Positions 21,088 through 38,823 of a stretch of 64,000 nt of DNA are shown here, piece by piece. The notes below the pieces were generated by a model. The model was not told the DNA's origin, did no database searches, and worked only from the letters and a program-made list of their open reading frames with translations. The stretch comes from an uncultured Gammaproteobacteria bacterium (GTDB taxonomy: Bacteria > Pseudomonadota > Gammaproteobacteria > Pseudomonadales > Pseudohongiellaceae). A program made the translations under genes and the position numbers. Positions within the stretch are counted from its first letter, which is position 1; every line of letters starts with the position of its first letter. Where the stretch lies: NCBI GenBank assembly GCA_913060695.1, contig CAJXUA010000020.1, forward strand, positions 1 through 64,000, written 5' to 3'.

Positions 21088-22227
21088 TTAATCATGACGC
21101 AACTCATCCGGAATCGCGACATCAGAGCGCAGAATAGGACGCTTCTTAACCCGGCCTTTCGCGAACTGCTTGAGCTGATGCAGATAGGCCAGCACTTGAG
21201 CAACTGCGATATAGAGACCTCCCGGGATCTCCTCGCCGACCTTGGTGTTGAAGAAGATCGCTCGTGCCAACGCAGGCGACGAGACAATGGGAATATCGTG
21301 TTCTTGCGCAATCTCGCGAATCTTCTGAGCGACAAAATCCGCGCCTTTGGCCAACATAATAGGCGCGTCTTCCTTGCTCTGATCGTAGCGCAAGGCCACC
21401 GCATAATGCTCTGGGTTGGTGATAATCACATCGGCCTCGGGCACATCGCCCATCATGCGATTCTGCGACATCTGATACTGCAATTGTCGAATCCTCTGCT
21501 TAACCTCGGGCCGCCCTTCCGTGTCCTTCATCTCGTCTTTAACCTGCTGCATGGTCATCTTGAGCTTCTGGGCATGCTGAAAGATCTGAATCGGAATGTC
21601 GACCATCGAGATTAGGATCATGGCGCAGGAAATCCACAGCACAGACCAGCCGATCAAGCCAACGGACTCGGAGATTGCGGGCAGCACGGACTCGTGCTGA
21701 ATACTGAGTATGGCGCCGGTATTAATATACAAAACGAGGAGCGCGAGGGAGGCGACAACAACGACCTTAGCAATGGCCTTAAAGAGCTCGATTATGGCGT
21801 TAGGGCCAAACATACGCCCAATACCGGCGAGGGGACTCATGCGACTCGCTTTAGGGGCTATAGACTTAAGACTAAAATTCCAGCCGCCAAGTGCAATTGG
21901 GGCGAGAAAGGCGAGCAGCAACAGTACGGCAAACACGGGCAACAGAGAGGTAAAGCCAGTCATGACGGAGTCGCCGAGCTGTTCAAGCATGGCGGCAGTA
22001 TCGAAGTAAGCGGCGCGATCGAGGGTAAAATTATACTCCATAATACGAGCGAGGCCGGTAGCGAGAATGCCTCCAAAGGCAATCACTGCCGCAGTACCGC
22101 CAAGCAAGATGGCAGTAGTATTGAGCTCTTTGGAACGCGCTATGTTCCCGTCTTCTCGTGCGGAGTCCAACCGCTTCTGGGTTGGCTCCTGACTCTTCTC
22201 CGCCGAGGAGTCTTTATCGTCTGCCAT
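21088..22227 (-). CDS. flhB: Flagellar export switch protein FlhB
   Basis: A 379-residue protein with four N-terminal transmembrane helices, a cytoplasmic linker (QQVKDEMKDTEGRPEVKQRIR) and the autocleaving C-terminal domain. The cleavage motif reads NPEH (VIITNPEHYAVAL) rather than the textbook NPTH; the scissile Asn-Pro and the His are kept. It is the substrate-specificity switch from rod/hook to filament export. It lies downstream of fliR, but a 548-bp gap with two large hairpin repeats separates them. Confidence 0.96.
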   Translation of the reverse strand: MADDKDSSAEKSQEPTQKRLDSAREDGNIARSKELNTTAILLGGTAAVIAFGGILATGLARIMEYNFTLDRAAYFDTAAMLEQLGDSVMTGFTSLLPVFAVLLLLAFLAPIALGGWNFSLKSIAPKASRMSPLAGIGRMFGPNAIIELFKAIAKVVVVASLALLVLYINTGAILSIQHESVLPAISESVGLIGWSVLWISCAMILISMVDIPIQIFQHAQKLKMTMQQVKDEMKDTEGRPEVKQRIRQLQYQMSQNRMMGDVPEADVIITNPEHYAVALRYDQSKEDAPIMLAKGADFVAQKIREIAQEHDIPIVSSPALARAIFFNTKVGEEIPGGLYIAVAQVLAYLHQLKQFAKGRVKKRPILRSDVAIPDELRHD

Positions 22228-22330
22228 TCACTTTCTCTCTATGGCTTTAATTTAATTGCTGATTAACTTACTAAAACTTCTGTCACCCTAACGTAGTAAC
22301 TTTGGCACTGGGTTAGCACCCTGTTGCTCG

Positions 22331-22496
22331 AGCGTGGCGGGGTGGTATAGGCACTCAGGACACGCCGTGAATACATCCATGTAGGCTCGGCGCGCAGAAT
22401 CCGACCGCCATGGATGGCGGGAGTGCCGAGAATGCAGGAGCAATTCATCGGCCATGCTGCTAACGGTCCTGCTTGCCTACACCACCCCACCACACT
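22331..22496. mobile_element. Large palindromic repeat element, copy A
   Basis: Outer arms 22331-22353 and 22474-22496 (23 nt) pair except at three positions, all of which become G-T on the minus strand. An inner GGAC/GTCC clamp encloses a core beginning ACGCCGTGAATACATCC and ending GCTGCTAACGGTCC. This copy has an expanded centre with extra hairpins CCGCCAT-GG-ATGGCGG (22405-22420) and GCCGA...TCGGC. The core matches copies B (22601) and C (38712), but the outer arms are unrelated to theirs. No coding frame, so if it is mobile it is non-autonomous. Confidence 0.7.
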
Positions 22497-22600
22497 CTCT
22501 ATATTGCTGGCCCTTAGAACCCGCAACTTCGATCTCGTCTCGATAGTCCAACGACAGTTTGGAAAATATTTCTGAACTATCTGCCTGCACAATCGAGTGA

Positions 22601-22707
22601 CTCGAAGCGGGTGCCCCTGTGCAGGACCGTTAGCAGCAGGGATGCTGCGCGCCGAGCCCCCACGGATGGGTTTACGGCGTGTCCGGCGCGGGGGTACCCG
22701 CTTCGAG
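22601..22707. mobile_element. Large palindromic repeat element, copy B (inverted)
   Basis: Outer arms 22601-22622 and 22686-22707 (22 nt, CTCGAAGCGGGT...) pair with three wobble positions, all G-T on the + strand. The core is the same as copy A but in opposite orientation (AGCAGCAGGGATGCTGC hairpin, then CGAGCCCCCACGGATGGG and ACGGCGTGTCC). It lies about 100 bp from copy A in the fliR-flhB gap. Confidence 0.7.
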
Positions 22708-22775: not shown

Positions 22776-23552
22776 CTAAAGTAACTCTCTAGCCATTCCG
22801 AAGAACTCGGCGAAGATATTCTCCGCGGACTCTAGGAACGTGCCGAGTGTTATCCATATTATGAACAGCCCGAACATCAATGCGACTGGGAAGCCCAGTG
22901 CGAAAATATTAAACTGCGGCGCAGCTCGCGTCATGATACCGAACGCAAAATTCGTGATTAGTAGCGCCGTTACTGCTGGCAGCGCTAGTATTAGCCCGCT
23001 CGAGATTACCCAACTGAACGTGCTCACTACTCGCATCATCGCACCCGTGTCGAATCCGAAAGACACGATCGGCATTACCCTAAAACTATCTATCAAGATC
23101 TCTAGCATTACTAAGTGCCCATCGAAGGTCACGAATAGCAACATCACCAGCATCATGTAGACCGTGCTCATGATTGCCACGTTAACCCCATTGGACGGAT
23201 CCACCATCGATGCGAAACCCAAGCCCATCTGCATCGCGATCAACTGCCCCGCCATCACGAACACTTGAAACAGAAGCTGCATGAAGAAACCTAGTGCCGC
23301 CCCTATCACTACCTGCTGCGCCACGATCAAGATCGCCCCTACCGACACCCCGTCTACTTGCGGCACTGCCGGCAGCATTGGCGCCACCATTACCGTGATG
23401 GCTACCGATAGCACTAGTCGAATGCGCATTGGAACAAGCTGTGTGCCGAACAATGGTGCCGCTAGGAAGAAACCCATGATGCGGAACATTGGCCAGAGAA
23501 AGGTGCCAAGTAGCCCCCCTAACTCCTCCGCACTCATATTGATCAATTCCAC
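22776..23552 (-). CDS. fliR: Flagellar export gate protein FliR
   Basis: A 258-residue membrane protein with five to six hydrophobic helices. Typical FliR features are the N-terminal FLWPMFRIMGFFLAAPLFGT, the MQMGLGFASMVDP loop and the ALPAVTALLITNFAFGIMTRAAPQFNIFALGFP segment. It forms the FliP5Q4R1 export gate core. It follows fliQ with an 11-base gap. The end of the fli operon may lie here, given the long repeat-filled gap before flhB. Confidence 0.96.
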   Translation of the reverse strand: MELINMSAEELGGLLGTFLWPMFRIMGFFLAAPLFGTQLVPMRIRLVLSVAITVMVAPMLPAVPQVDGVSVGAILIVAQQVVIGAALGFFMQLLFQVFVMAGQLIAMQMGLGFASMVDPSNGVNVAIMSTVYMMLVMLLFVTFDGHLVMLEILIDSFRVMPIVSFGFDTGAMMRVVSTFSWVISSGLILALPAVTALLITNFAFGIMTRAAPQFNIFALGFPVALMFGLFIIWITLGTFLESAENIFAEFFGMARELL

Positions 23553-38104: not shown

Positions 38105-38674
38105 TTAGGCTTTGGGAGGAGTAACGCCAGTCTGACCCATATACTTGCCGCCACGCTGTTTGTAGGTGACTTCGCATTGTTCATCCGATTGATAGAACAG
38201 CATCTGCGCAACGCCTTCGTTGGCGTAAATCTTGGCTGGTAGTGGAGTAGTGTTGGAGAATTCGAGAGTCACATGACCTTCCCACTCGGGCTCAAGGGGG
38301 GTGACATTCACGATTAGGCCGCAGCGCGCATAGGTGGACTTGCCGAGGCAGACGACGAGGACGTCGCTAGGTATACGGAAGTATTCGACCGTGCGAGCAA
38401 GGGCGAAGGAGTTAGGGGGAATGATGCAGTAGTCTTCCTCGATGCTTACGAAACTAGTCTCACTGAAATTCTTAGGGTCGACGACACTGGAGGTATGCAC
38501 ATTGGTGAAGATCTTGAACTCGCGGGCGCATCTGACGTCATAACCGTAGCTGGAGGTGCCGTAGGAGATGACTTTATTGCCATCAACGAAGCGCACTTGC
38601 TTGGGTTCGTAGGGTTCGATCATGCCGTGCTTCTCGGCCATCTCATTGATCCATCGATCGGACTTTATGCTCAT
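38105..38674 (-). CDS. dcd: dCTP deaminase
   Basis: A 189-residue trimeric dUTPase-like enzyme. The catalytic region [34 protein letters not shown] contains the Ser/Arg and Glu residues of dCTP deaminase, and [10 protein letters not shown] closes the C-terminus. It converts dCTP to dUTP for dTTP synthesis. It is monocistronic by appearance, bounded by hairpin 38006 downstream and repeat copy C upstream. Confidence 0.96.
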
Positions 38675-38711: not shown

Positions 38712-38823
38712 GAGCGAGGGGTGGCTTCACCGGTTCCTGACACGGCGTGAACCCGTCCTTGGGGCCTCGAGCGCAGCATCCCTGCTGCTCACGGTCATGA
38801 ACCGATAAAGCCACCCCTCGCTC
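38712..38823. mobile_element. Large palindromic repeat element, copy C
   Basis: Arms 38712-38736 (GAGCGAGGGGTGGCTT...) and 38799-38823 pair, with two internal C-A mismatches that are G-T on the minus strand. The core (ACGGCGTGAACCCGTCC, CGCAGCATCCCTGCTGC, ACGGTC) matches copies A and B. The arms are unrelated to theirs. It lies in the gap between the Deg-type protease stop and dcd start, both on the minus strand. Confidence 0.7.

Follow-up and report, generated by a model that had tools for sequence, protein, structure and literature searches.

The window, that is the whole 64,000-nucleotide stretch of DNA analysed here, contains three copies of a palindromic repeat, referred to as A, B and C. 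Copies A and B sit as a pair between two flagellar-type genes, which we take to be FlhB-like and FliR-like, and copy C is located next to a presumably dCTP-deaminase-like gene. All copies are described relative to their R strand, defined as the strand reading GACCGT, then hairpin 2, then GAGCCCCCATGGATGGGTTCACGGCGTGTC; the opposite strand is called the C strand. The features are as follows.

21088..22227, minus strand: gene, presumably FlhB-like (ORF call and orthologue search); the A/B pair lies 5' of it
22330..22358, minus strand: 3' arm of copy A on R (arm alignment, fold)
22359..22468, minus strand: core of copy A on R, 110 nt long owing to a 51-nt insert (arm alignment, R1 match)
22403..22453, plus strand: insert of ca. 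51 nt within the loop of hairpin 2 in copy A (end positions uncertain by 1-2 bases)
22469..22497, minus strand: 5' arm of copy A on R (arm alignment)
22601..22624, plus strand: 5' arm of copy B on R (arm alignment)
22625..22683, plus strand: core of copy B on R (arm alignment, R1 match)
22640-22642 and 22664-22666, plus strand: GGA motifs of copy B in hairpin 2 and hairpin 1, respectively (sequence)
22684..22707, plus strand: 3' arm of copy B on R (arm alignment)
22776..23552, minus strand: gene, presumably FliR-like (ORF call); the A/B pair lies 3' of it
38105..38674, minus strand: gene, presumably dCTP-deaminase-like; copy C lies just 5' of it with its R strand co-directional
38712..38738, minus strand: 3' arm of copy C on R (arm alignment)
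38739..38796, minus strand: core of copy C on R (arm alignment, R1 match)
38797..38823, minus strand: 5' arm of copy C on R (arm alignment)

A covariance model of the repeat (R1) returned three matches in the window at E <= 1, namely 38731-38804(-), 22617-22691(+) and 22351-22476(-). These are the three elements listed in the initial annotation, and alignment of their arms reached the reported ends within a base. On the R strand, the arm of copy A comprises 24 Watson-Crick pairs, 3 G·T pairs and 2 other mismatches, that of copy B 20, 3 and 1, and that of copy C 24, 2 and 1, with no A·C in any of them. The annotated G·T counts of 3, 3 and 2, all on the same strand relative to the core, were thus confirmed, but they do not account for every internal non-Watson-Crick position as had been claimed, since four further non-wobble mismatches (2, 1 and 1) are found within five pairs of the core. 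The repeat unit spans ca. 112 nt, or ca. 135-150 nt with the short conserved flanks seen in one genome. When copies B and C were folded on both strands, each of the four folds was better than all of its 200 shuffles (z -6.4 to -9.1), i.e. beyond chance. The insert of copy A forms two hairpins with GGA in the loop when read on the plus strand, i.e. the strand opposite to R, and is missing from the orthologue of copy A in a relative (G002). A module of ca. 51 nt is also found in the hairpin-2 loop at L009, L012, L014, L015 and L049. Those copies that were read share one orientation of this module, which folds into two hairpins with GGA loops on its own strand and is duplicated in tandem in L015. 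Further, a short module like CCCCTTACGAGGGTAA is present within or beside hairpin 1 in L012, L014 and L015.

Across genomes, 217 copies were gathered, of which 160 were kept once duplicates and copies with short or weak arms had been removed. Core length was 56-60 nt in 149 of these 160 copies, and the arms form an outer stem of mostly 24-30 bp. RNAalifold analysis of 56 diverse cores, aligned by sequence without structure fitting, yielded 23 consensus pairs, 20 of which showed changes on both sides. The consensus fold is a three-way junction made up of a closing stem, hairpin 2 and hairpin 1. Both hairpins carry a GGA motif in the loop. In case of hairpin 2, 308 of the 312 copies whose stem was recognisable had GGA, despite free variation of the stem itself; nine further copies had no hairpin-2 stem of 4 pairs and fall outside the 312. 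In case of hairpin 1, the motif was found in 309 of 312 copies, a conservation that is partly built in because the search pattern contained the 3' half of the core, with hairpin 2 and the arms lying outside the pattern. The two motifs are spaced 22-28 nt apart in 154 of 155 copies (23-24 nt in most), and the predicted fold leaves the hairpin-2 motif unpaired in 141 and the hairpin-1 motif in 120 of 155 copies. Both predicted R-strand loops resemble the published binding site of CsrA/RsmA, described in PMC7652899 as the SELEX consensus RUACARGGAUGU, mostly in six-base loops, and as CAGGA(U/A/C)G in the repeats of CsrB.

We determined the distribution of the family using R1, BLAST and pattern searches. 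At E <= 0.01, R1 gave 48 matches in the genome of origin, 56 in G002, 135 in Stenotrophomonas maltophilia SJTL3, 18 in Rheinheimera D18, 40 in P. saudimassiliensis and at least 150 in Xanthomonas LMG 31884; a further genome, G100, had 110 matches at E <= 1e-4. Within the genus, 14 of 14 genomes carried 8-33 BLAST matches each, and in a sample of the class, run under stricter filters that miss weak matches, 33 of 185 genomes (own genome included) had a match at E <= 1e-6. A search for the 3'-half core pattern gave at least 119 stretches, from Stenotrophomonas, Xanthomonas, Marinobacter, Microbulbifer, Rheinheimera, Shewanella and others. Searches with one consensus query yielded no copies in plasmids and phages at E <= 1e-5 and none in E. 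coli at E <= 1e-3. The family is widespread yet patchy across gamma-proteobacteria, and its core is conserved across many genera. Copies were additionally seen in records titled Klebsiella pneumoniae MAG, Patescibacteria or Bacillus subtilis (L092, L093, L099, L145, L164 and L166); judged from the titles only, these contigs are perhaps mis-binned or contaminated.

Mismatches in the arms follow a strand rule. Over the inner 20 arm pairs of the 160 distinct copies, 166 G·T and 15 A·C were counted on the R strand, using an aligner that scores G·T and A·C alike and a copy finder that picks the 5' core end giving the best arm pairing and thus favours paired arms. The one-strand bias reported for the window thus extends to the larger set, where equal mismatches on both strands were not seen. 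The G·T to A·C ratio was 55:1 in the genus (35 copies), 111:14 in other genera (125 copies), 71:13 in G100 (58 copies) and 119:13 with one copy per arm cluster (115 clusters). Five pairs of orthologous copies, whose orthology was inferred from flank matches, differ by 12 one-sided changes to G·T, none to A·C and 3 others. Of the doubles, 7 are compensated and 1 is of another kind; 7 pairs have been gained or lost, and copy C is unchanged. The preponderance of G·T among these one-sided changes indicates that the strand rule acts in place. Against the rule, copy G223(+) at the Stenotrophomonas locus has two A·C mismatches by reading of the alleles. As RNA, the R strand is predicted to be more stable than the C strand in 141 of 156 copies, which largely restates the strand rule. 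Our results show that R accepts wobble to a much greater extent than the opposite strand and support the element being kept as a structure of one strand.

According to the initial annotation, the arms are specific to each copy. This holds insofar as unrelated arms accompany near-identical cores, but not in general, as subfamilies have arms in common and near-identical subfamilies occur at many sites. Among 350 pairs with a core identity of at least 98%, compared at equal core length and with ungapped arms, arm similarity was below 0.4 in 34, 0.4-0.7 in 127 and 0.7 or more in 189. In the G003/G007 group, an identical 60-nt core is found with unrelated arms, e.g. in L052 and L355. The closest 37 sister pairs differ by 52 single changes (33 G·T, 15 other, 4 A·C) and 14 compensated doubles, and the next 41 (0.70-0.85 similarity) by 114 compensated doubles, split evenly into 57 transitions and 57 transversions, along with 49 G·T, 35 other and 5 A·C changes. 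Compensated transversions and transitions numbered 34 and 49 in 46 sister pairs, and 290 and 180 at 0.55-0.70 similarity. In close copies, compensated transversions also occur in adjacent clusters, e.g. three in L288/L268. The counts suggest that compensated transversions are more frequent than stepwise paths through G·T alone would give, and recombination tracts or templated arm exchange may contribute to them.

One Stenotrophomonas intergenic site was searched in 31 genomes and the locus obtained from 29. One or two recognisable copies are present in SJTL3, G202, G223, G211, G222, G218, G209, G207, G210 and G212, a copy of less certain homology is present in G228 and G203, and neither copy is found in G227, G221 and G225, among others. 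Unrelated arm types occupy the same position between the same flanks. The G211 allele is half-exchanged, its 5' arm being of one type and its 3' arm of another, with pairing only next to the core. Whole-arm replacement at this site looks like recombination between alleles or copies via the shared core. The alleles of G206, G207, G209 and G210 look like deletion scars, which makes gain and loss at this site indistinguishable, and no clean pair of empty and filled sites was obtained at the level of bases. Among the alleles of the Stenotrophomonas pair, L426, L424, L425 and L427 resemble deletion scars, with a few letters in common at the junction. At L044, two inverted copies bear each other's arms by eye, as an inversion between them would give. 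Our comparisons show that arm sequences evolve through single G·T steps and through compensated changes, including in-place evolution at orthologous loci. They also show that subfamilies of recent spread carry their arms along, and that alleles of a single locus differ from one another by whole arm blocks. A strand-specific process copying one arm onto the other, proposed initially as one possible origin of the element, is not needed, given that arms travel with subfamilies, single G·T changes dominate the closest copies and block exchange looks like recombination.

For 115 copies, both neighbouring genes were called by a simple ORF rule (122 copies in a rerun with other limits). Of these, 49 lie between convergent genes, 33 between co-directional genes with R antisense, 22 between co-directional genes with R sense and 11 between divergent genes. 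Outside G100, single copies between co-directional genes were C-sense in 19 and R-sense in 9 cases, and copies with a neighbouring copy 13 and 15, respectively. Many copies form pairs. In SJTL3, all 42 instances of neighbouring copies less than 700 bp apart (84 of 135 copies) share the same divergent arrangement at distances of 227-449 bp. In Xanthomonas, 9 of 13 neighbour pairs among the 69 matches listed are in opposite orientation, and in 20 stretches read by eye, 9 of 9 divergent pairs join two subfamilies. Copy pairs are few in G100. In this genome, of the 98 copies that share a contig with at least one other, 90 follow the majority orientation of their contig, a value reached by none of 20,000 random draws, and R is mostly on the C-rich strand. 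Analysis of 20 stretches of 20 kb showed that R is antisense to both neighbours in 39, sense to both in 3 and mixed in 3 of the 45 copies for which two neighbours were called. The direction of the genes in G100 is largely that of replication, so that the two effects are taken together, and no promoter-like conservation was seen there beyond ca. 20 nt upstream of the arm. The 20 stretches L398-L417 of G100 have a strong GC skew, ca. 0.11-0.20 in size, and strand-coherent repeats. A replichore bias in S. maltophilia was rejected based on all 135 copies (P=0.17); the 51 single copies gave P=0.025 on the assumption that replication starts from position 1.

We also searched for an enzyme that might mobilise the repeat. 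With flanks of up to ca. 1.5 kb, no copy was found beside any of 30 Y1_Tnp loci listed in the genus or 8 in four named genomes, and R1 run on 18 of these 38 loci gave no match. Mobilisation by a Y1 or RAYT transposase found no support in these 38 loci. Rheinheimera D18 has 18 copies but no Y1_Tnp match. In SJTL3, four Y1_Tnp genes are each flanked by their own inverted-repeat type (L320, L325, L326 and L327), without an R1 match. Further, 779 ORFs from 119 stretches were clustered and, by reading, none of the 25 largest clusters was transposase-like; a common neighbouring gene as mobiliser was rejected for want of a recurrent mobiliser-like family.

Overall, we consider it reasonably probable that these repeats are a dispersed palindrome family with a one-strand three-way-junction core, a paired stem free in sequence and arms exchanged as blocks, selected as a single-stranded R molecule. 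The R strand has the conserved 56-60 nt core, with its closing stem and two GGA hairpins, closed by a long outer stem held to pairing only, and blocks of arm sequence would be exchanged by recombination or gene conversion through the shared core. Selection on a single-stranded R molecule is the least certain step of this scheme. RNA appears slightly favoured, as a conserved junction, protein-site-like loops and a sequence-free closing stem follow the usual plan of structured RNAs, with single-stranded DNA during spreading nearly as likely. The initial proposal of a structured RNA read from one strand thus stands in its structural part; as to RNA, the loops match CsrA-type sites, but R is antisense in G100 and lacks upstream promoter-like conservation there. 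Of all results, the 39 of 45 copies in antisense placement argue most strongly against a hairpin carried on mRNA as R, and the G·T rule holds in G100 despite it. In turn, strand-specific single-stranded DNA at replication forks cannot explain all copies, since both orientations occur within pairs.

If the molecule is RNA, it might serve as a decoy, acting in trans or from 3'-UTRs, in which one CsrA dimer bridges the two R-strand GGA loops and dozens of copies titrate CsrA/RsmA. We regard this as a tentative possibility, to which the near-invariant loop motifs, their spacing and their match to the SELEX and CsrB patterns point; there is also a precedent in kind, an RsmA-binding 3'-UTR sRNA of Xanthomonas (PMC7694677). 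The antisense orientation and lack of a conserved promoter in G100 speak against such a decoy, as do the GGA loops of the copy A insert, which lie on the strand opposite to R, and the very stable stems, named as a possible disadvantage for CsrA binding in PMC7652899. The fuller version, in which each genome harbours dozens to more than 100 two-site RNA decoys with hypervariable closing stems whose arms are shuffled between loci via the core, is rather unlikely. As a non-autonomous mobile element, the repeat would be recognised in the form of one folded DNA strand, like the hairpins of REP or IS200-IS605 elements; this single-stranded hairpin would tolerate G·T, and the head-to-head pair would be the mobile unit. 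Near-identical subfamilies at many sites, the uniformly divergent pairs of SJTL3, the two-subfamily pairs of Xanthomonas and the contig-wise coherent orientation in G100 with R mostly on the C-rich strand are in line with this possibility. We nevertheless hold it to be doubtful, because in-place orthologous changes follow the G·T rule, which would not be expected if selection acted only at transposition, cross-genus conservation lies in the centre rather than the ends, and copies are missing from all Y1_Tnp loci covered, with Rheinheimera D18 lacking a Y1_Tnp match altogether.

Two further explanations were considered. Quasipalindrome template switching could keep the arms complementary, with the G·T excess arising from a mutation bias on the R strand. 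Such a process would account for compensated transversions about as common as transitions and for their clustering in close copies such as L288/L268. It is improbable given that the closest pairs differ mostly by single changes (52 against 14 compensated), that clusters next to the core are explicable as one recombination tract and that, by reasoning, C-to-T changes on the G-rich coding strand would place the wobbles of G100 on the other strand. Least probable is an ordinary terminator or mRNA 3'-end stabiliser in gene tails. The location between convergent or co-directional genes (49 and 33 + 22 of 115 copies, against 11 between divergent genes) would suit it, but in G100 the strand read by the neighbours is mostly C, on which the wobbles appear as A·C. 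No T-run follows the stem by eye, and an intrinsic terminator was rejected. The one-strand wobble rule provides a countable test of RNA versus single-stranded DNA selection in bacterial dispersed palindromes, a long-standing issue in the case of REPs. Binding of CsrA by the loops, if it occurs, would place the family within a global regulatory circuit, and if the full decoy scheme is true, a mobile repeat would supply a sponge of a global regulator.

The behaviour of the family is similar to that of REP, BIME and REPIN sequences, being dispersed intergenic palindromes, mostly downstream of genes, with head-to-head dimers, heterodimers and complementary stem changes. Pairs in opposite orientation, as in REPINs and BIMEs, were found in SJTL3 (42/42) and Xanthomonas (9/13 among the matches listed). 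G-T pairs in REP stems, taken as a hint of RNA function, and head-to-head dimers have been noted before (PMC3733652 and PMC2817692), making these two features less surprising here. The same papers describe REPs as single hairpins of 20-40 bp with a 5-13 bp stem and a GTAG or CGTC tag, whereas the present repeats have a 56-60 nt three-way-junction core and sequence-free arms mostly of 24-30 bp, outside REP size. No consistent tag was seen; GTAG- or TGTC-like letters are seen by eye 5' of some copies, and the flank consensus varies by clade. Unlike REPs with their RAYTs, the copies have no Y1 transposase beside them (38 loci, flanks up to ca. 1.5 kb). Copies in L052, L345 and L355 are apparently nested in other REP-like sequences (GGGAGC..CTTGC type), as repeats within repeats.

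Among the TIR repeats of TIRYT genes, S. maltophilia K279a has one self-complementary family whose members occur a short distance apart (PMC3733652). This family could be part of the present one; the Y1_Tnp genes of SJTL3 are flanked by other inverted repeats. ERIC and other bacterial MITEs are palindromic, intergenic and ca. 100-130 bp long. Their ends are conserved, with 15-30 bp TIRs, and ERIC is listed among them (PMC3733652). In the present family, by contrast, the arms vary and are unrelated between many copies while the centre is conserved, so that there are no conserved terminal inverted repeats. RNAs of the CsrB/RsmZ type likewise present GGA in hairpin loops (PMC7652899); here there are two sites only, a long closing stem and dozens of dispersed copies. 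The Xanthomonas 3'-UTR sRNA, which is without an Rfam homologue, bound RsmA even when all four GGA were altered (PMC7694677). Rfam 15 gave no family match at gathering score in the window and 18 element-bearing loci, apart from two tRNAs off the copies, and a weak match to MIR7723 was rejected (21.7 bits against a cut-off of 200). A published description was not found in open-licence full text, in agreement with the initial view that no named family fits, and PMC9788540 yielded nothing of relevance. The result is a class-wide structured repeat without an Rfam 15 match, conserved in its centre and not at its ends, with long stems whose evolution is constrained only by pairing. Since the family behaves as a REP/MITE-type class but differs in REP size, Y1 association and MITE end conservation, we regard it as new and unusual, a new variety of REP/MITE-like dispersed palindromes.
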